From the NCBI GenBank assembly GCA_029779375.1, contig JAKPAR010000169.1:1-12392 (forward strand): a stretch of 12,392 nucleotides of DNA. The letters are read 5' to 3'. Below are positions 988 through 10,748 of this stretch, piece after piece. The notes below the pieces were generated by a model. The model did not search any database. It was not told the DNA's origin and worked only from the letters and a program-made list of their open reading frames with translations. Positions within the stretch are counted from its first letter, which is position 1; each line of letters begins with the position of its first letter. The translations under genes and the position numbers were made by a program. Origin of the DNA: Bacillota bacterium. Its GTDB lineage: Bacteria > Bacillota > Clostridia > Tissierellales > Sporanaerobacteraceae.

Positions 988-1049
988 TTGAAAAAGACCA
1001 AATTCTAAGTTTTAAAAATATTTTTACTTTAATTCAGCAAAGTGCATAT

Positions 1050-1070
1050 AACAAATCAAATAAGTTTGTT
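1050..1070. repeat. Inverted repeat in the MATE/DUF1177 divergent intergenic region
   Basis: AACAAA at 1050-1055 and TTTGTT at 1065-1070 form a perfect 6-base inverted repeat with a 9-base spacer. It sits between the two divergent transcription units, where an operator could act. Short A+T-rich palindromes arise easily by chance in such DNA, so this is only a candidate regulator site. Confidence 0.25.
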
Positions 1071-1130
1071 CACTTTTACATATTGTAATGCGGTAAGATA
1101 AAAGAAATAAATAATAAAATTCAGAATTCA

Positions 1131-1160
1131 TTAAATTATCGCTCAAATGAAATTTATACT
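1131..1160 (+). promoter_or_regulatory. Candidate promoter for the DUF1177-led array
   Basis: TATACT at 1155-1160 is a 5 of 6 match to a -10 box, about 35 bases before the ATG at 1196. The best-placed -35 (TTAAAT, 1131-1136, spacer 18) is weak, matching only 3 of 6. An activator-dependent promoter is possible. The rest of the 283-base gap (913-1195) shows no RNA gene or clear riboswitch. Confidence 0.3.
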
Positions 1161-1195
1161 TTGGAGAATATCAAAACATAAAGGAGGAGATAACA

Positions 1196-2137
1196 ATGAT
1201 TTTAAAACAGGTTATGGAAATGTTTGAATTACTAGATAAACCAAATGCAAACGGCAATGAAGTTGCAAAATACATTAAGGCTCGTGGCAATGAAAATGTA
1301 GAAATAAATGTGGAAACAGTTGAAGGTGAACAAGGCAGTACTGATTTTATAAAGATACTCATAAAAGGGAAAAATGGGAAAACTAAAAGTGGTACTGCAA
1401 AGACATTAGGCATAGTTGGCAGATTAGGAGGACTAGGTGCAAGACCACATATGAATGGATTTGTATCAGATGGAGATGGAGCACTGGCTGCATTGTCAGC
1501 GGGTTTAAAATTAGTTGATATGAATGCAAAGGGAGATGTGTTGGAAGGTGATGTAATAGTTGCTACTCATATATGTCCAGATGCCCCAACTTTGGAACAT
1601 TATCCAGTTTACTTTATGGATTCACCAGTAGATATGGATACCATGAATAGATTGGAAGTTTCACAAGAAATGGATGCAATATTAGCCATAGATACTACTA
1701 AAGGAAATGAAGTGCTTAACTACAGAGGGTTTTCAATATCACCAACAGTAAAAGATGGATACATTCTTAAGATTAGTGATGATCTTGTAAATATTATGAA
1801 AAAAGTGACAGGAAAACTCCCTGTAGTATTCCCCCTTTCACAACAAGATATTACACCCTATGGCAATGATTTATACCATATAAATAGTATTCTTCAACCA
1901 AGTACTACAACAAGTTCACCAGTAGTTGGAGTTGCTATAACTACTGAAACTTCCGTAGCAGGTTGTGCTACAGGAGCAACTCAAGCTATAGATGTAGAAA
2001 TGGCAGGAAGGTTTGCTGTAGAAGTTGCTAAAGAATATGGAATTGGAAAATGTAGCTTCTATGATGAAAAAGAATTTGAGTTGTTGCTTAAATTGTATGG
2101 AGAAAATAAAAGATTTCAGACAAAGGGAAATATTTAG
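1196..2137 (+). CDS. DUF1177 family protein
   Basis: This 313-residue protein of unknown function is recognised as DUF1177 by its pattern: GSTDFIKILIKG (residues about 49-60), GRLGGLGARPHMNGFVSDGD (about 76-95), a THICPDAP segment (about 124-131), the IDTTKG motif near the middle, SPTVKDGYILK, and DITPYGNDLYHINSILQP. It has no signal peptide or membrane segment, so it is cytosolic. The length is usual for the family. The start is fixed by AAGGAGGAG at 1181-1189, 6 bases before the ATG. DUF1177 genes are typically found beside peptide ABC transporters and peptidases, as here, and the substrate-binding lipoprotein follows 44 bases downstream, so the two are likely cotranscribed. The central SDGDG-ALAAL and THICPDAP segments loosely resemble M20/M42 metallopeptidase cores, but I would not assign an activity. 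Confidence 0.88.
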   Translation: MILKQVMEMFELLDKPNANGNEVAKYIKARGNENVEINVETVEGEQGSTDFIKILIKGKNGKTKSGTAKTLGIVGRLGGLGARPHMNGFVSDGDGALAALSAGLKLVDMNAKGDVLEGDVIVATHICPDAPTLEHYPVYFMDSPVDMDTMNRLEVSQEMDAILAIDTTKGNEVLNYRGFSISPTVKDGYILKISDDLVNIMKKVTGKLPVVFPLSQQDITPYGNDLYHINSILQPSTTTSSPVVGVAITTETSVAGCATGATQAIDVEMAGRFAVEVAKEYGIGKCSFYDEKEFELLLKLYGENKRFQTKGNI

Positions 2138-2181
2138 TTTAGGCATTAAGCTTTACGATAATTTATGAGGAGGAGAAAAAA

Positions 2182-3789
2182 ATGGGAAAAAAATCATTGG
2201 TACTGTTTTTAGTTTTTGTCATGGTATTGTCATTAGCATTAACTGGTTGTGGAAACAAAGAAACTAAAAATCCATCAACTGGCAGTGAGGATACGACAAA
2301 TGACAATTCTTCGAATGAACCCAAAGAAGGTGGGACATTAACTGTTGCATTAGCAGCTATTCCAAAAACATTAGATCCTGTCAAGTATACTGGAATTTAC
2401 GAAGGAAATGTTATTCATAGTATAGCTGACAATTTAGTTTATTACAATAAGGACCTAAATGAGATAATTCCTGGATTAGCAACAAGTTGGGAAATATCAG
2501 ATGATCTTAAAACATATAAGTTTACATTAAGAGATGATGTATATTTTCAAAAAGGTAAATTCCAAGATGGAAGAAAGATGACAGCTGAAGATGTTAAATA
2601 TAGTCTTGAAAGATCAGCAAAAGAATCTGTCATGAAGAGACTTAGAATGCTTGAATCTGTTGAAATTGTATCTGACACAGAAATTATTTGTCATCTAACA
2701 GAACCAAATGCAGCATTTTTGACAGTTTTAACAGATGCAGGAAATGTCATAGTTCCAAAAGAAGAAGTTGAAGGCTGGGGAGAAGATTTTGGTACACATC
2801 TAGTTGGTACGGGACCATTTGCATTTAAGGAATGGAAAAATAGTGACAGTGTTGTTCTTGAAAGATCAGAGAATTACTGGGGAGAAAAGCCATATCTAGA
2901 TGGTGTTACTTTTAAATTTATAACTGATCAAAACATGATGACAAATGCTTTGAGAACTGGAGAAATTGATGTAGCTACAGATATAACAGGTGAAAGTATG
3001 CAAGCTATAAAAGCCGATCCAAATTTAGTACTAAATGAAAAACCAGCATTGAAAGTAATATATATTGCTATGAATTTAATGGAAGGGCCTACAAAAGATC
3101 CAAAAGTAAGGGAAGCTATTATTTCCGCAATAGACATAGATGCAATGGTCAAAGGCTTATATCCATGGGGAGAGGCACAAAGAGCATATTTGGCATTACC
3201 TCCTGGATCATGGGGATATGATGCATCTTTAGAAGAAAAAGTTCCTAAATATGATCCTGAAAAAGCTAAAAAGCTAATGGAAGAAGCTGGATATCCAAAT
3301 GGTTTCCAAACTGAAATATATGTTGCAGGAAGTGATAAAACTGCAGTTATAGTTCAAGACTATTTAAAGAAGAATTTAAATATTGACATGAAGATAAACT
3401 TACTTGAATGGGGAACATTTAGTGAAGTTGTTTCAAAGGGAAAAGCTCCTATGTATGCTATGTCATGGACATGGTATCCAGACCCTGATTTTTTCTTGTA
3501 TCAAATGTTCCATAGCAAACAAATTGGTTCATTAGGAAACGGTCAAGGATTTAGCGATCCAAAAGTAGATGAATTGTTGGATAAAGCAGTATCAGAAACT
3601 GCTGATCAAAATGAAAGAGCAGAATTGTATAAAGAAGCTTTAGGTATAATAACTGAAAACAATGGAAGAATTAATTTTGCAAATGGAAAGATTATAGATG
3701 GAGTAAACAAAAAAGTACATGGTTTTGAAAGAAGTGCAGATGGAACTATATTTATTACAAATCCAGAAATAAATGTATGGAAAGAATAA
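2182..3789 (+). CDS. Oligopeptide/dipeptide ABC transporter substrate-binding lipoprotein (family 5)
   Basis: This is the extracytoplasmic solute receptor of a DppA/OppA-type ABC importer, 535 residues, which is the normal length. It begins with a lipoprotein signal: MGKK, a hydrophobic stretch, then the lipobox LTGC with the lipidated cysteine at residue 23, followed by a polar Ser/Asn/Thr-rich linker. The family 5 signature is present (PGLATSWEISDD followed by the FxLRDDVYF and DGRKMTAEDVKYSLER segments), as are the ALRTGEID motif and the C-terminal family pattern. The ligand is probably a peptide, but related proteins bind nickel, opines and sugars, so specificity is open. GAGGAGG at 2167-2173 precedes the ATG. 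The gene is intact, whereas the permease after it is broken; unless the rest of the transporter is elsewhere in the genome, this receptor has no local partner. Confidence 0.95.
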   Translation: MGKKSLVLFLVFVMVLSLALTGCGNKETKNPSTGSEDTTNDNSSNEPKEGGTLTVALAAIPKTLDPVKYTGIYEGNVIHSIADNLVYYNKDLNEIIPGLATSWEISDDLKTYKFTLRDDVYFQKGKFQDGRKMTAEDVKYSLERSAKESVMKRLRMLESVEIVSDTEIICHLTEPNAAFLTVLTDAGNVIVPKEEVEGWGEDFGTHLVGTGPFAFKEWKNSDSVVLERSENYWGEKPYLDGVTFKFITDQNMMTNALRTGEIDVATDITGESMQAIKADPNLVLNEKPALKVIYIAMNLMEGPTKDPKVREAIISAIDIDAMVKGLYPWGEAQRAYLALPPGSWGYDASLEEKVPKYDPEKAKKLMEEAGYPNGFQTEIYVAGSDKTAVIVQDYLKKNLNIDMKINLLEWGTFSEVVSKGKAPMYAMSWTWYPDPDFFLYQMFHSKQIGSLGNGQGFSDPKVDELLDKAVSETADQNERAELYKEALGIITENNGRINFANGKIIDGVNKKVHGFERSADGTIFITNPEINVWKE

Positions 3790-3805
3790 TATATTGAAAT
3801 TTAAA

Positions 3806-3845
3806 ATTGAAAAACCTTATATAGCAATATATAAGGTTTTTCAAT
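3806..3845 (+). terminator. Intercistronic hairpin after the substrate-binding protein gene
   Basis: An 18-base perfect inverted repeat (ATTGAAAAACCTTATATA at 3806-3823 and its complement at 3828-3845) is closed by a GCAA tetraloop. It starts 16 bases after the lipoprotein stop codon. The stem's own 3' arm carries a T run (3837-3841), so it may act as a partial terminator. Such hairpins between a binding-protein gene and its permease usually protect the upstream mRNA from 3' decay and give higher expression of the receptor than of the membrane parts. No long T tract follows the stem, so readthrough is likely. Confidence 0.75.
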
Positions 3846-3878
3846 AACATCTAACAAAGAAGGTTGAGGTGAGCTAGA

Positions 3879-4433
3879 TTGGTTAAATATTCATTAAAAA
3901 GAATACTAGAATTAATACCTACTATATTCATAGTAGTATTTATAGTGTTTGTTGTAACTCGTGTCATACCTGGAGACCCTGCAGCTGTTATGTTAGGACC
4001 TCAAGCCAGCGTAGAAGCTGTGGAAGAATTGAGAGAAAATTTAGGATTGAATGACAATATATTTGTACAATTTGGCAGATATTTAAAAGGAGTTGTACAA
4101 GGAGATTTAGGAAAATCCTATTATTACAATCAACCTGTCACAAAGCTTATAAGTGAGAGATTTCCCAATACACTAGTATTAGCTATTGTAAGTATAATAA
4201 TTGGACTTCTGGTAGGTATTCCTGTGGGAGTAGTATCAGCAACTAAACAGTATTCGGCATTTGACTATATATCCATGATTTTGGCTTTAATTGGTATATC
4301 AGTGCCTATATTTTGGTTAGCGATGATGGCAGTACTATTATTTAGTGTAAATCTTGGCTGGCTTCCATCTGTAGGAATGGGTGAAGGAAGTTTTATAGAT
4401 ATAGTAAAGCATTTGATTTTACCTTCTGGTTAA
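3879..4433 (+). pseudogene. DppB/OppB-type ABC permease, truncated at 184 residues
   Basis: This is the N-terminal 60% of a dipeptide/oligopeptide transporter inner-membrane permease. The TTG start at 3879 is supported by GAGGTGAG at 3866-3873. The N-terminus VKYSLKRILELIPTIFIVVF and the RVIPGDPAAVMLG loop are diagnostic of DppB, as are LGLNDNIFVQFGRYLKGV and GDLGKSYYYNQPV. Three further hydrophobic segments follow. Homology ends at LILPSG and a stop codon comes at once. Intact family members run about 305-320 residues and carry, after this point, the EAA cytoplasmic loop (YVRTARAKG type) that docks the ATPase; that loop and the last membrane helices are absent. The product should not work as a permease. 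The break coincides with the start of M20 peptidase homology, indicating a deletion junction or misassembly rather than a point mutation. Confidence 0.88.
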
Positions 4434-4659
4434 ATCAGTTAAAGCCAATGCAAAGGATGTATTGAATATGGATATAACTGCAACATATCAATGGGCTTCT
4501 AGCGATGCTAGATATTTTAGATACAAAGGTATTCCAACCATACAATATGGTCCTGCCAACACAGAAGGAATTCATTCATACAATGAGACGGTTGATATAA
4601 AGGATTTGATAAGTTCTGCTAAAGTATATACTGGTATGATTTTAGATCTTCTTAAATAA
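4429..4659 (+). pseudogene. C-terminal remnant of an M20 family peptidase
   Basis: About 76 codons in a frame different from the permease match the last part of M20 metallopeptidases (ArgE/DapE/PepV-like). The recognisable elements are WASSDARYFRYKGIPTIQYG, then GPAN, EGIHSYNE with the His that normally binds the second metal, and a final helix KVYTGMILDLLK. The similarity begins around KSVKANAKDVL at the permease break. There is no ribosome binding site and the N-terminal catalytic portion (HxD, bridging Asp, EE) is absent. A TTG at 4462 could in principle start a 65-residue peptide, but nothing supports it. In peptide-utilisation operons an M20 gene commonly follows the ABC transporter genes, so this is best read as the far end of a gene whose front was lost. 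Confidence 0.85.
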
Positions 4660-4683
4660 TTGACTTCAAAAGAGGTGTTAAAA

Positions 4684-5829
4684 ATGCTTTTATTAAAAAA
4701 TTGTAATGTGTTTGATTCTTTAGAGGGCCAGTTTTTTTTAAGCGATATTCTAGTACAAGGTAACAAAATAGAAAGTGTCAAGAAAAATATAATAGTAGAT
4801 AATCTAGATACTCATGTCATAGATATAAAGGGAAACATAGTATGTCCTGGATTTATAGATGCTCACAGTCATATAGGAATGTGGACTTTAAACGACAATG
4901 GAAATGATGCAAATGAATGTGTAAAACCTTTGACACCAGCTCTAAGGGCTATAGATGCTTTGAATCCCTTTGATGAAGCTTTTAAAGATGCTTATTCAGC
5001 AGGTATAACAACGGTTATGATATGTCCTGGAAGTGGAAATGTTATAGGAGGACAAGCAGCTATTATAAAAACTTATGGTACTAGTGTTGAAGACATGATT
5101 ATAAAAAGTCCTGCTGCCATGAAAATTGCCTTTGGAGAAAACCCCAAAAATGTCTATTCGTCTCAAAAAAAATCTCCAAGCAGTAGAATGGCTACTGCAT
5201 TTCTCATAAAAGAAATGCTAAATAAAGCAAAAAAATACTATGAGGAAGAAAAAAATGGGTTGAACCATGAATATGATGAAGAGCTGGAAGCTTTTTTACC
5301 TGTATTCAATGGGGAGATGCCTTTAAAGATACATGTTCATAGATTAGATGATATAATGACGGCTATAAGAATTGCAGAAGAGTTTCAAATTGATTATACA
5401 TTAGATCACTGTACAGAAGGATATTTGGCAGTAGAATATATAAAGGAGAAAAATGTTCCAGTTATGTTGGGACCACTGTTTTCCTTTGCTACCAAAGTAG
5501 AAACCAGAGATGCTAGTGCAGAAGCTCCAAGAGTTTTCAATGACAAGGGAGTTTTAATATCCCTTATATCAGATCATCCTTTTATGAATTGCAAGTTTTT
5601 GCCTTTATATGCAGGTTTATTGTCTAGATACGGACTTGATATGATAGATGGTCTAAAAGCTCTTACAATAAATCCTGCCAAAGCGTTAAATATAGACGAT
5701 AGAGTTGGCAGTATTGAAGAGGAAAAGGATGCAGATTTGGTAGTATTTAATGGGGAACCTTTGGAAACTACTACAAAGGTACTTTTAACAATTATTAATG
5801 GTAACATTGTATATAAAGATTTGGATTGA
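4684..5829 (+). CDS. Metal-dependent amidohydrolase (imidazolonepropionase-like), apparently active
   Basis: This is a 381-residue cytosolic hydrolase of the amidohydrolase superfamily, which cleaves amide or lactam bonds. The start is the ATG at 4684 with AGAGGTG at 4671-4677; an earlier in-frame TTG at 4660 has no ribosome site. The N- and C-terminal ends form the usual beta-sandwich (LLLKNCNVFD ... GSIEEEKDADLVVFNGEP). The barrel shows PGFIDAHSH with H61 and H63, a candidate bridging K129 (IIKTYG), KIHVHR with H217 and H219, LDHCTE with H242, and LISDHP with D297, a full set of expected ligands. NPAKAL near the C-terminus is typical of the superfamily. The substrate is unknown; relatives act on cyclic amides, N-acyl amino acids and dipeptides. 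A 14-base gap separates it from a paralogue in tandem. The context of peptide uptake and peptidases suggests a modified peptide or acylated amino acid. Confidence 0.9.
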   Translation: MLLLKNCNVFDSLEGQFFLSDILVQGNKIESVKKNIIVDNLDTHVIDIKGNIVCPGFIDAHSHIGMWTLNDNGNDANECVKPLTPALRAIDALNPFDEAFKDAYSAGITTVMICPGSGNVIGGQAAIIKTYGTSVEDMIIKSPAAMKIAFGENPKNVYSSQKKSPSSRMATAFLIKEMLNKAKKYYEEEKNGLNHEYDEELEAFLPVFNGEMPLKIHVHRLDDIMTAIRIAEEFQIDYTLDHCTEGYLAVEYIKEKNVPVMLGPLFSFATKVETRDASAEAPRVFNDKGVLISLISDHPFMNCKFLPLYAGLLSRYGLDMIDGLKALTINPAKALNIDDRVGSIEEEKDADLVVFNGEPLETTTKVLLTIINGNIVYKDLD

Positions 5830-5843
5830 TTGGGGGATTAAAG

Positions 5844-6986
5844 ATGTTGCTACTTAAAAATGGAAAAATATTTACAATGGCAGATAGCCAAGTTATTTAT
5901 GGTGATATATTGATAGATGAAGGCAAAATTATTGATATAAATAGTTCTATACGAGAAGAAGATGCATTAGTTTTAGATGTGAGAAATCATATTGTTGTTC
6001 CTGGTTTTATTGATGGACATTGTCATGCAGGTATAATTGAAGGCGGAGTGGGAAGTGTAGGAAATGATATGGAGGAAGCAAATGACACTTTAAGCCCTGA
6101 ACTTCTAGCAGAAGATGGGATAAATATTAGAGATTGTGTCTTTGAAGCTGGAATTAGAGCAGGTGTCACAACAGTATCTGTTGCACCAGGAGAATCCAAT
6201 GTCATAGGAGGTAAATCATGTGTGATAAAAACCTATGGTCAAACATTGGAAGATAGAATGGTGAAATCTTCTTCTACTTTAAATATATCTATTGGAGAAT
6301 TTGTCAAAAGGCTTGGTGATGTAAGGGTAGAGATGCCTAGATCTAGAATGGCTATCACATATATGATAAGAAGTTTTCTAAATGGAGCTAAGAAATACTA
6401 TGAAGAAACTAAAAATGAGGATGTAGATAGGAATACTTTTAATGAGAAATATGAAAGTGTTAAGTCTATATTTACAAAGGATACAAAGGTAGAGATATGT
6501 GCTCATAAGGCTCAGGATATACAAACTGCACTGAGATTGAAAGAAGAATTTGATTTTGATTTGATACTAACTTATTGTACAGAAGCTTATTTAATTGAAG
6601 ACCAAATAGATAAAAGTATTCCTTTGATGCTAGGACCATATTTAACTGATAAATCAAATTTTGAAATAAAAAATAGAAATTCTAGTTCTCCAACTATTTT
6701 TTCTAACAAAGGATTCAATACTTGTCTTATCACAAATCATCCAGATATTCCTTTGGATTTTTTACCCATATGCGCAGCTATAGCAATTAAGGATGGGATA
6801 AGTTTTGAGAATGCACTTAAATCAATAACTATAAATCCTGCAAAGGCACTGGGCATAGATAATAGGGTAGGGAGTATTGAAATAGGAAAAGATGCAGATA
6901 TTGCTGTGTTTGATGGAGATCCTTTTAAAGCTAGAACTAAAACATGCTTCACTATAGTTAATGGTGAAGTTGCTTATAGGAGATGA
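5844..6986 (+). CDS. Amidohydrolase paralogue with missing catalytic ligands (possible pseudoenzyme)
   Basis: This is a 380-residue protein clearly homologous along its whole length to the preceding gene: shared MLLLKN start, NVIGG then IKTYG, AKKYYEE, MLGP, ITINPAKAL and RVGSIE. The start is the ATG at 5844 with GGGGGAT at 5831-5837; an upstream in-frame TTG at 5826 overlaps the previous stop and is not preferred. It keeps HxH (H59, H61 in IDGHCH) and K129. Where the paralogue has H217 it has C219 (H221 remains), where the paralogue has H242 it has Y244 (LTYCTE), and the expected catalytic Asp (D297 in the paralogue) is N298 (LITNHP). The last Asp is nearly invariant in the superfamily. The reading frame is intact, so it is under selection. 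It may be a regulatory or structural partner of the first enzyme, or have altered chemistry. Confidence 0.88.
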   Translation: MLLLKNGKIFTMADSQVIYGDILIDEGKIIDINSSIREEDALVLDVRNHIVVPGFIDGHCHAGIIEGGVGSVGNDMEEANDTLSPELLAEDGINIRDCVFEAGIRAGVTTVSVAPGESNVIGGKSCVIKTYGQTLEDRMVKSSSTLNISIGEFVKRLGDVRVEMPRSRMAITYMIRSFLNGAKKYYEETKNEDVDRNTFNEKYESVKSIFTKDTKVEICAHKAQDIQTALRLKEEFDFDLILTYCTEAYLIEDQIDKSIPLMLGPYLTDKSNFEIKNRNSSSPTIFSNKGFNTCLITNHPDIPLDFLPICAAIAIKDGISFENALKSITINPAKALGIDNRVGSIEIGKDADIAVFDGDPFKARTKTCFTIVNGEVAYRR

Positions 6987-6990
6987 GTAT

Positions 6991-7659
6991 ATGGAAAGAG
7001 TGGCAACTATAACTATAGGTCAATCTCCCAGGGTTGACTTAGTTCCAGAAATATTAAAACTTATGAGGGATGATATTGAAATTGTGGAATATGGTATTCT
7101 TGACTCCTACACCTATGAAGAAGCAGAAAATATGCTTAGACCAAATAAAGGTGACAATGTACTAGTTAGTCGAATGAGAGATGGAAGACAAATAGAAATG
7201 AAAGAAGAATTAGTACCAAATCTTATTCAAGAATGCATAAATAATATTGAAAAAGAGGGAATAAACACTATATTCTTATTGTGTACGGGAAAGTTTCCTG
7301 AATTTGAACATAAAGGACTTCTTTTAGAACCTTTTTCACTGTTGCATTCAATAGTTAAAGATGTATCAAGTGGAAAGATTGGTGTCATTGTTCCGGATAG
7401 TTCTCAAATAGATCAGACAATTGAATATTGGAGAGAAGGAGGGAATGATATTTTTGTAAGAGCTGTTTCTCCCTATAAAGATTTCTTTGACAATATAGAA
7501 AAAGAAGCCTTAGATTTTAAAAATGAGGAATTGTCTTTAATAGTGCTGGATTGTATGGGGTATTCTTTGGAGATGAAGAAAAAAGTTAAGGAAATAACGG
7601 GAAAACCAGTTTTGCTACCGAGAATAGTTATGGCAAAACTTTTGGAAGAATTGGTATAA
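6991..7659 (+). CDS. aroM: AroM family protein
   Basis: This is a 222-residue cytosolic protein matching the AroM family, whose E. coli member has about 225 residues and no firmly known role. The start chosen is the ATG at 6991, 4 bases after the previous stop, with AGGAGATGA at 6978-6986 as ribosome site; a longer reading from 6961 would overlap the amidohydrolase and lacks this support. Visible family marks are ATITIGQSPRVDLVPE at the N-terminus, the IFLLCTGKFPEF segment (C98), the IGVIVPDSSQI segment, VSPY and VLDCMGY (C188). Two conserved cysteines in two similar half-domains recall the Asp/Glu/hydantoin racemase fold, so a racemase-like activity is a possible reading. AroM genes often neighbour DUF1177 and peptide transport genes, as here. 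Confidence 0.87.
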   Translation: MERVATITIGQSPRVDLVPEILKLMRDDIEIVEYGILDSYTYEEAENMLRPNKGDNVLVSRMRDGRQIEMKEELVPNLIQECINNIEKEGINTIFLLCTGKFPEFEHKGLLLEPFSLLHSIVKDVSSGKIGVIVPDSSQIDQTIEYWREGGNDIFVRAVSPYKDFFDNIEKEALDFKNEELSLIVLDCMGYSLEMKKKVKEITGKPVLLPRIVMAKLLEELV

Positions 7660-7681
7660 ATAAGTTTCGGAGGGGATAAGT

Positions 7682-9022
7682 ATGAAGAAAAAACCTATAA
7701 CTATGGATATCATCAATAGTTGTTCAGAGCATTATAGAGCTGATAAAAACAACAAGGTTTATTCAGACGCAGTTATGAGAAATGGACTTGTAGAGGTTAG
7801 TTTAAATAATGATTCTATAAGAAGTATGCATTTTGATTTTTCTCATGAAATAGAAGTCGGAAGAGTTACAGCACAGAAAAAAACTGCAAGGTGTTGGATG
7901 TTTGCAGCTTTGAATGCAGTAAGATACAGTATTTCTCATAGTTTAAGGATGAGGGAAGTAGATTTTCAATTATCTCAAAACTATACATATTTTTGGGATA
8001 AGCTAGAAAAATCAAATCTATTTTTAGAAAATATCATAGAGACCATGGACAGAGAATTATCTGACCATGAAGTAGCAGGTTTACTAAAAGATCCTCAAAG
8101 TGATTGTGGTCAATGGGATATGTTTGCCAAGCTTATAGAAAAGTACGGTGTGGTACCATTATATGCAATGCCTGAGACTCAAAGTGGCACAGATTCAAAA
8201 ATTATCAATGAAATAGTAAATGAAAAGTTAAGACAAGGTGCAAAAGAACTTAGAGATATGAATAGAGATGGAAAATCAATGGAAGAAATTGAAGAGCAAA
8301 AAGAATCCATTCTTCTAGATATGTACAATATTATATGTCATTTTCTTGGAGAACCTCCAAAGACATTTGATTTTGAATACTGGGATTTAGATGGGGTGTT
8401 TCACAGGGATCAAGATATAACTCCATTGGAATTCTATCACAAGTATTCTAAAGTTAAACCGATTGATTATATAAGCATCATAAATTTTCCAACAGAAGAC
8501 AAACCTTTTGGGAATACCTATTCATTAAAATATCTTGGGAGTGTAGTAGATGATGAACCAATCAAGTATTTAAATCTTGATATTGAAGTTTTAAGACAAG
8601 CTGCTATTGCTCAAATAAAAGATGGAGAACAAGTTGTATTTGGATGTGATGTAGGGAAGATGTCTCATAGAGAATTGGGAATACTTGATACAAATTTATA
8701 TAATTATGAAACGGTACTAAATACCAAATTCAATATGACAAAAGAAGAAAGACTTATGTATAGAGGAACAAGTTTAACACATGTCATGACATTTACAGGT
8801 GTTAATATTGTTGATGGAAAGCCAAACAGATGGAAGATACAAAATAGCTGGGGTGAGGCAGAAGGAAAGAAAGGCTTTTATATTATGAGTGATGAATGGT
8901 TTGATGAATATGTGTTTAAAGTCATCATAAACAAAAAACATTTGAGCAAAGAAATACTTAAACAATATGAAAAAGCTCCAACAATACTTAGTCCATGGGA
9001 TCAAGTAGGACCATTGTTTTAA
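7682..9022 (+). CDS. pepC: C1 family cysteine aminopeptidase (PepC/bleomycin hydrolase type)
   Basis: This is a 446-residue intracellular papain-like aminopeptidase that removes N-terminal residues from peptides. GGAGGGG at 7669-7675 precedes the ATG at 7682. The catalytic triad is visible: C71 in RCWMFAALN, H367 in SLTHVMTFTGV, and N388 in KIQNSWG. Q65 (in AQKKTARCW) is the oxyanion glutamine. There is no signal peptide. The length is that of PepC (about 445), and DCGQWDMF and TPLEFYHKYS are typical. Unusual points are ARCW where most relatives read GRCW, and a terminal ...GPLF in place of the ...GALA type tail; in this family the C-terminal tail lies in the active-site cleft and sets exopeptidase specificity. 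It is the last gene of the array, 22 bases after aroM, and is followed by a terminator. Confidence 0.94.
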   Translation: MKKKPITMDIINSCSEHYRADKNNKVYSDAVMRNGLVEVSLNNDSIRSMHFDFSHEIEVGRVTAQKKTARCWMFAALNAVRYSISHSLRMREVDFQLSQNYTYFWDKLEKSNLFLENIIETMDRELSDHEVAGLLKDPQSDCGQWDMFAKLIEKYGVVPLYAMPETQSGTDSKIINEIVNEKLRQGAKELRDMNRDGKSMEEIEEQKESILLDMYNIICHFLGEPPKTFDFEYWDLDGVFHRDQDITPLEFYHKYSKVKPIDYISIINFPTEDKPFGNTYSLKYLGSVVDDEPIKYLNLDIEVLRQAAIAQIKDGEQVVFGCDVGKMSHRELGILDTNLYNYETVLNTKFNMTKEERLMYRGTSLTHVMTFTGVNIVDGKPNRWKIQNSWGEAEGKKGFYIMSDEWFDEYVFKVIINKKHLSKEILKQYEKAPTILSPWDQVGPLF

Positions 9023-9032
9023 AGATAGGGAC

Positions 9033-9080
9033 AAAATAGGCTTTCGTTGAGAAAATTCAACAACAAAGAAAGCCTATTTT
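9033..9080. terminator. Rho-independent terminator between convergent genes, probably bidirectional
   Basis: AAAATAGGCTTTC (9033-9045) pairs perfectly with GAAAGCCTATTTT (9068-9080), and an inner 5-base stem GTTGA/TCAAC (9046-9050 and 9057-9061) extends it. A T run through 9083 follows on the plus strand, and the A run at 9033-9036 gives a shorter T run on the minus strand. It lies just after the C1 peptidase stop and just beyond the convergent PucR-type gene's stop, so it can end both transcripts. Confidence 0.88.
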
Positions 9081-9098
9081 TTTATCTTATGCAATATA

Positions 9099-10748
9099 TT
9101 ATTTTAAATTTAATGAAAAAAGGTCATGTATTTTAAGTCCTAAATGGAATACAAGTCTGGTTTCAGAACTATCCATATCCAAACCTGTAATTTCTTCAAC
9201 TTTTTTAAGCCTTTGATATAGTGTGTTTCTATGGATGAATAGTTTGTCAGATGTTTCAGAAAAATTGAAATTGTATTTAACTAGTACTTGGATAGTTTCA
9301 AACAATTGAGTATTGTTTTCTCTATCATATGCATATATTTTTCCTATTCCATTATTATATAGTCTTTCAAGTATAGGATTGTTAGGATATTTATATAGAA
9401 GATGATATACAATCAAATCATCATAAGCATAAATACTTTTTCTATTTTTAAATATTTTAGCACCAATTTTCAAACTAAATATGACATCTTCATAGGCCAA
9501 ATTTAATTCATCTAAAGTATCATAAGCTCTACTTAATCCAATAGAAAATTTATATTCGGGCATCTGAAGTTCCAATGTATTTAAAAGATTATTGTATTTT
9601 TGAAGTAGTTTTTCATTTGGAATATCATGTTTTATTCTTATAAATACAATAGAGGAAGTGTTTGTTATAGCATGATCATCATAAAAACTAGCTTTGGCAA
9701 TATTTAAAGTTTCATTTATAATATTTGTAGGTATTTTTTCTGATTCCAATGGTTCTGAATGTTTTACTTTTAAAGGTCTTATGTTAATTATCCATACAAA
9801 TCTTTTTAAATTATATTCTATATTGAAAAATTTGGCTTCTTTTTCAACAATATTTTTATCAGAATACAAACCGTACAATATACCTCTTACAAATTCTTCT
9901 TTGGACTTGTTGTATATAAGCTCTTTTTCATGATAAGTCATCAAAGATATTATTATGAAAGGTATAGCTTCATTGGAAATTTTGATATTGTATTCACCAT
10001 CGCTTGTTTTGTCAATTTCTTCTACGATACAAAGATATCCTAAATCTCTATCATAAGTTTTTAATGGATATATTGTATAGATTTCATCACTACCACTATA
10101 TACAATTGGGTTTAGAGTAGACAAAGTATTTGATTCATTGTCTTTGATTAAAGTCAGCATAGTATCTGTAAGTATTTTTCTTTCTGAATTTAAAGGATTT
10201 GAATTTGCAAAGTCAATTATTTCTCCACAATCTGACAATAAAACCACAAAACCATTTATATAATGGGTAAGAATCCTGAGGATGTTGTTTGTAGAAAAAT
10301 AATTGGTATTTTTTAAATTAATGAGATTGTTTTTAAATTGATTAACTAAAAAATTACTTACATCCTTTGTATATTTAAGAGCGGAAATGATATCCTCATA
10401 AGAGTTGTCTGCTGGTATTTTAATGACTGGGAAATTGACTTCATATAGTTTAATTATCTGATGGAAGTGGTTAATTATTTCATCATTAATACTTTCTTTA
10501 AAAACAAGTCCCAACAACCCAATTTTCTGTTCTTTAAGTGTATTCAATATAGTAACAAGATTTATCTTTTCCTTAACAATTATATCAGGAGAAACTATAA
10601 CAAAATCTCCTTTTTTAAATTGGGAGTGCTCATAGGGAATGTCAATTATTCTGATATCTTTAATATTGTTGTCAAAGTATTCATTCCCAGAAATAATTTC
10701 AAAATTAATGAAATTTTGGCTAAGATCAAATAGTTCTTGAATTTTCAT
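9099..10748 (-). CDS. PucR family transcriptional regulator
   Basis: This is a 549-residue DNA-binding regulator. The N-terminal PucR domain covers about residues 1-125 (KIQELF..., FEIISGNEYFDNNIKDIRI, FKKGDFVIVSP, then VNFPVIKIPAD). A middle region and a GGDEF-like domain typical of CdaR/PucR proteins follow, and the C-terminal PucR helix-turn-helix covers about residues 496-524 (FSETSDKLFIHRNTLYQRLK, then KVEEITGLD). Family members respond to purines, sugars, amino acids or nitrogen status; the ligand here cannot be told. The ATG at 10748 is preceded by AAGGGTGA on the minus strand. The gene is convergent with the catabolic array and divergent from the M55 D-aminopeptidase gene, so those two units are its likely targets. 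Confidence 0.92.
   Translation of the reverse strand: MKIQELFDLSQNFINFEIISGNEYFDNNIKDIRIIDIPYEHSQFKKGDFVIVSPDIIVKEKINLVTILNTLKEQKIGLLGLVFKESINDEIINHFHQIIKLYEVNFPVIKIPADNSYEDIISALKYTKDVSNFLVNQFKNNLINLKNTNYFSTNNILRILTHYINGFVVLLSDCGEIIDFANSNPLNSERKILTDTMLTLIKDNESNTLSTLNPIVYSGSDEIYTIYPLKTYDRDLGYLCIVEEIDKTSDGEYNIKISNEAIPFIIISLMTYHEKELIYNKSKEEFVRGILYGLYSDKNIVEKEAKFFNIEYNLKRFVWIINIRPLKVKHSEPLESEKIPTNIINETLNIAKASFYDDHAITNTSSIVFIRIKHDIPNEKLLQKYNNLLNTLELQMPEYKFSIGLSRAYDTLDELNLAYEDVIFSLKIGAKIFKNRKSIYAYDDLIVYHLLYKYPNNPILERLYNNGIGKIYAYDRENNTQLFETIQVLVKYNFNFSETSDKLFIHRNTLYQRLKKVEEITGLDMDSSETRLVFHLGLKIHDLFSLNLK

Follow-up and report, generated by a model that had tools for sequence, protein, structure and literature searches.

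A probable recent deletion joins the remnants of a dppB-type permease gene and an M20 peptidase gene in a peptide-transport operon

The DNA analysed here (the window) is the whole of contig C53, 12,392 b in length, from a draft genome (G000) of 402 contigs and 1.80 Mb that is 88.8% complete with 4.24% contamination. The principal features are collected in Table 1. An M55 D-aminopeptidase is also encoded in the window, as judged from ORFs and Pfam, and no Rfam match was found within it. The start codons of amidohydrolase 2 (ATG 5844) and of the AroM-family gene (ATG 6991) were picked by eye in ORFs that open at 5826 and 6961, respectively. Also by eye, AGAGGTG upstream of ATG 4684 gives amidohydrolase 1 its own translation start. 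DUF1177, a peptide importer, an M20 peptidase, two amidohydrolases and AroM (window 1196-7659) co-occur in several Tissierellales-type genomes. The sole paper found in the literature with the word DUF1177 concerns another family.

Table 1. Features of the 12,392-b window and the evidence for each.
Feature	Position	Strand	Evidence
DUF1177 gene, intact, first in conserved operon	1196..2137	+	Pfam PF06675 1e-133
Family-5 peptide-type substrate-binding protein, intact, without its own transporter	2182..3789	+	Pfam SBP_bac_5 1.2e-93
dppB-type permease 5' stump: 183 residues, one foreign Gly, stop	3879..4433	+	ORF, Pfam, G001 alignment
Probable deletion junction, one-base overlap	4427..4428		4383 bp of G001 missing between these bases
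M20 (ArgE/DapE-type) peptidase 3' stump, last 76 codons	4428..4659	+	Pfam; G001 alignment; P0137
Amidohydrolase 1, intact	4684..5829	+	Pfam Amidohydro_1
Amidohydrolase 2, intact	5844..6986	+	Pfam Amidohydro_1
AroM-family gene, intact	6991..7659	+	PF07302; NCBIfam PRK10481.1 above its cut-off
C1-like aminopeptidase (PepC type), intact	7682..9022	+	PF03051 3e-162
PucR-type regulator, intact	9099..10748	-	PF13556 1.7e-19; PF07905 1e-7, slightly below its cut-off

The permease ORF encodes 184 amino acids, ending in LILPSG followed by a stop. It covers positions 1-114 of 114 of Pfam BPD_transp_1_N and positions 1-55 of 184 only of BPD_transp_1; the EAA loop is presumably in the missing part. Against G001, a genome of the same genus, window 3882-4427 aligned to residues 1-182 of the 320-residue permease, with the query starting at its second residue, and window 4426-4653 aligned to residues 341-416 of the 416-residue M20 protein, in both cases without stops. 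The M20 tail, open in a frame other than that of the permease, corresponds to positions 145-205 of 206 only of Peptidase_M20, so that the catalytic domain is incomplete, and most of the family's metal ligands presumably fall in the lost part. Translation of the tail could restart at TTG 4462 or ATG 4468. These results bear out the initial annotation, which had described a permease ending at LILPSG, an M20 peptidase tail of ~76 codons beginning at the same point in another frame, and flanking genes that are intact and co-directional.

At 4427/4428 the first 183 dppB codons are joined out of frame to the last 76 M20 codons. The junction is base-exact relative to G001, and its left and right edges have one base (T) in common. 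A chance overlap of ORFs is ruled out by the DNA identity to G001 of the blocks that end at the junction, 95.0% on the left and 97.7% on the right. The two edges lack an in-register direct repeat, and a 12-13-base match reported for G001 within 300 b of both edges does not sit in the right place; with one common base at the edges, a repeat-mediated deletion (by RecA or slippage) is likewise ruled out.

A DNA search covered 59 relatives besides the window's own genome, 60 genomes in all. The sequences flanking the junction are separated by 4383 bp in G001 and by a similar distance in G005, G021 and G019, the last from another family. The 4383 bp of G001 consist of the 3' part of dppB (B), dppC (C), dppD (D), dppF (F) and the 5' part of the M20 gene, all open, which confirms both the loss of perhaps 4 kb and the order of missing genes (the rest of the permease, three transporter genes, most of the peptidase) anticipated from the window. 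B, C, D, F and M20 are also free of stops in G019, G005, G021 and L045, a Tissierellales MAG with the same gene set and longer spacers, and DUF1177 lies upstream of the binding protein (SBP) in the order SBP-B-C-D-F-M20 in G001 and these four. In G036 the 3.5 kb covered includes a binding protein, B and C, with a match to the M20 tail 5.7 kb beyond that to B; this operon is probably intact too. The initial annotation had held that relatives with dppCDF and a full M20 gene between these points would indicate an assembly error. Such relatives do exist, but a recent deletion predicts them equally, so their existence does not decide the matter.

Relatives were also scanned with amidohydrolase 1 (80 loci retained from 335 relatives and lying on 79 contigs, as L045 and L103 overlap on one), a scan that may omit records very near the window's genome. 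The operon was present on one contig only, that of L045/L103, and the DUF1177-SBP-B-C-D-F set was absent by tblastn from the other 78 loci, most of which have the amidohydrolase alone and some an ATPase or other single matches. DUF1177 and AroM are both present at L052 and L099.

A search of the window's genome with the 4383 bp returned 16 matches of 65-78% identity in the readable contigs, those < 3 kb being masked. These matches are paralogues; none in the readable contigs approached the 95% that the true segment should show, and relocation within the visible genome is rejected on the top match of 78%. Within C1-C35, each of the 18 contigs < 3 kb is masked as N (28,340 of 152,845 b), and a fragmented copy of the segment could hide in such masked short contigs. 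Among the paralogues, C132 has open frames for each of B, C, D and F; the same four genes find matches on C142, C140 and C112, some partial or at the end of the contig, and D and F do so on C67. Other peptide importers therefore remain in the genome. Of B, C, D and F the window retains only part of B, short of the two whole permeases and ATPase(s) of a functional importer. Judged from these missing genes, the uptake complex of this operon would be dead, and the intact binding protein and downstream hydrolases could be served by the other Dpp/Opp sets.

Protein searches returned proteins of putative deleted-type alleles and of intact ones. With the permease stump as query, 729 proteins matched at E <= 1e-40, of which the best 120 were listed. 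Among the matches listed, P0002 is a 184-aa protein, 97% identical, that ends in LILPSG like the window's and differs from it at five residues (9, 12, 54, 72 and 73); the position of the junction Gly is Leu or Ile in all 12 full-length sequences aligned. We regard P0002, compared at the protein level, as a probable further instance of this junction. The M20 tail matched 16 proteins. One of these, P0121, is a 62-aa M20 tail that begins at the Met matching ATG 4468 and has a G001-like end lacking the Cys of G001; it differs from both the window and G001 and is consistent with the same junction. The longest contigs of P0002 (1,902 b) and P0121 (9,136 b) are not the window's, and neither sequence equals that of the window. 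Among intact proteins, the permease P0001 (11 contigs), which passes NCBIfam Opp2B, matches the stump exactly along 183 residues, and the M20 protein P0137 (6 contigs) shows no difference from the tail along its 76 residues. The longest contig of each is 32,050 b, probably one and the same.

The condition of the stumps was assessed from codon changes polarised on the window lineage by comparison with G001, using G019 as the outgroup. The two stumps have 0 nonsynonymous and 8 synonymous changes, an outcome with P ~1e-5 to 6e-5 under no constraint, and a rough count limits the unconstrained share of the branch to at most about 0.12-0.16. The six intact neighbours together have 13 nonsynonymous and 55 synonymous changes, from which the stumps are indistinguishable (Fisher P 0.34), although recombination could have disturbed these counts. 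As none of the eight changes alters a residue, the stumps look constrained, and the loss is accordingly either recent or not real.

Identity to G001, summed over 200-base bins with gaps excluded, is 95.7% at 1021-4420, 90.6% at 4428-5227 and 99.2% at 5228-9027. Alignments of at least 1 kb in 12 other contigs range from 84.9 to 96.7%; the last of the three values is far above these, which argues that the locus has been exchanged between lineages. Window 5228-9027, ~3.8 kb, is a recent recombination tract with a G001-like lineage. A sharp strain switch at the junction is rejected, as identity to G001 changes near 5228 and not at 4427.

Breaks in collinearity were surveyed in 41 contigs of G000, 18 of them masked, against 1.60 Mb of G001's 2.9 Mb; 13 of the 23 visible contigs had an alignment to G001 of at least 1 kb. 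Six breaks did not coincide with tile ends: C53 has three of them, and C13, C14 and C25 have one apiece. Inspection of all six showed that the one at 4427 alone cuts through genes. The other five are at gene boundaries, which suggests that the assembly does not generally cut genes: whole genes are extra in G001 at the other two breaks in C53 and at that in C14, different whole genes meet at the C25 break, and an IS-like piece lies at the contig start in C13. At window 8972-9049, G001 (C10 ~54698-65885) has ~11.2 kb extra, bounded on both sides by a 78-bp stretch containing the 3' end of pepC, and G019 aligns uninterrupted across this point. From reading its sequences we take the block to hold two radical-SAM-like genes, ABC-type proteins and a subtilase-like gene; it looks like an integrated RiPP-type block. 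At window 1008-1021, G001 (C10 78322-87932) has ~9.6 kb of extra whole genes between a MATE-type gene and DUF1177, presumably oxidase-like, electron-transfer-like and sugar-kinase-like genes and a YhfZ-like regulator. Near position 4200 of C14 (locus L142) there is a 3.0-kb indel at a gene boundary; the extra DNA in G001, which we take to encode an iron- or cobalamin-type ABC importer, is missing from the G000 contig.

The initial annotation had left open a several-kb deletion or a misassembly; of the two, we consider a real, recent deletion of ~4.38 kb inside the peptide-transport operon to be the probable explanation. This reading is favoured because P0002, a further protein with a sequence of its own, ends on the same junction residue, and because a one-base overlap offers a graph assembler nothing to misjoin on. 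The deletion would have stripped a DUF1177-SBP-dppBCDF-M20-amidohydrolase operon of the distal part of dppB, of dppC, dppD and dppF entirely, and of the 5' four fifths of the M20 gene, and its ends would have been joined without useful homology. A single common base suggests Ku-independent end joining or another illegitimate event. Ku/LigD end joining is rejected: Ku (PF02735) had no match in any of four genomes (G000, which is incomplete, G001, G005 and G019), the control giving a match in 1 of 14, B. subtilis. In close strains the deleted allele would exist alongside intact ones, and homologous recombination may have carried it from strain to strain.

Such movement leads to a more specific version of the deletion reading, encompassed by it rather than additional to it, in which an older deletion allele originated a single time in another lineage of the genus and was recently imported by homologous recombination. 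We regard this version as possible, though with appreciably less confidence than the deletion itself. The junction in P0002 and the tail in P0121 sit on a background that has residues in common with G001, the rise in identity to G001 from 90.6% to 99.2% near 5228 is a recombination footprint, and the window's stumps are undecayed; against it, the window's dppB stump is 100% identical to that of intact P0001, and no import is visible on the left. It is, equally tentatively, conceivable that one exact importer-killing deletion, sparing the binding protein and hydrolases, circulates by recombination across lineages of the genus beside intact alleles. If true, a circulating deletion implies recurrent selection for loss of this importer.

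It is unlikely, in our estimation, that the junction is an artefact, arising from a chimeric molecule or from contigs wrongly joined in a fragmented assembly of metagenomic or single-cell origin, while the real genome has the operon intact. The fragmentation, incompleteness and contamination of G000 speak for an artefact; undecayed stumps are equally expected of a false join, a chimeric read would show a one-base junction, intact alleles identical to both stumps (P0001 and P0137) are also predicted, and the masked contigs < 3 kb could hold the missing piece. P0002 and P0121 may moreover come from the same samples, and P0002, whose differences all fall within residues 9-73, may be a strain mosaic. 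However, a repeat-driven misjoin requires common sequence, of which there is one base here, the junction residue recurs in P0002, and the five other breaks are at gene boundaries. A leftover 4.4-kb contig, if binned here, would also be visible, and none was found. The last alternative, an operon that is compact by nature with the peptidase tail always here without transporter genes, found no support and is rejected as extremely improbable, since the full B-C-D-F-M20 set is present in all five relatives read through (G001, G019, G005, G021 and L045) and the junction string (<= 3 mismatches) occurs in one of six family genomes, the window's own, and is missing from the other five.

If real, the deletion is a clean within-species loss of a peptide importer whose remnants have not yet decayed and of which both alleles are recorded. 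Gene-presence calls from such genomes would score the broken transporter as partly present.

The event is of an ordinary kind; its mild interest lies in intact and deleted alleles existing side by side. As in spontaneous multi-kb deletions in bacteria, a contiguous several-kb block is lost and both neighbours are kept in order. In a Salmonella study, verified spontaneous deletions had junction homology of at least 8 bp, at direct repeats, in contrast to the one base at the window's junction, and simulated chimeric reads had less junction homology than verified deletions (PMC3411829). The longer homology of the Salmonella junctions weighs somewhat against a real deletion here, although that study picked long-homology junctions for testing and says little on short ones (PMC3411829). 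Dpp/Opp-type importer operons comprise a binding protein, two permeases and two ATPases, and the intact relatives have this set complete and in order; in the window, by contrast, a permease stump and the binding protein are all that is left of it. Similarly, the intact homologue P0137 passes TIGR01910 as an ArgE/DapE-type M20 deacylase, whereas the window, whose tail matches Peptidase_M20, has the last 76 codons only.
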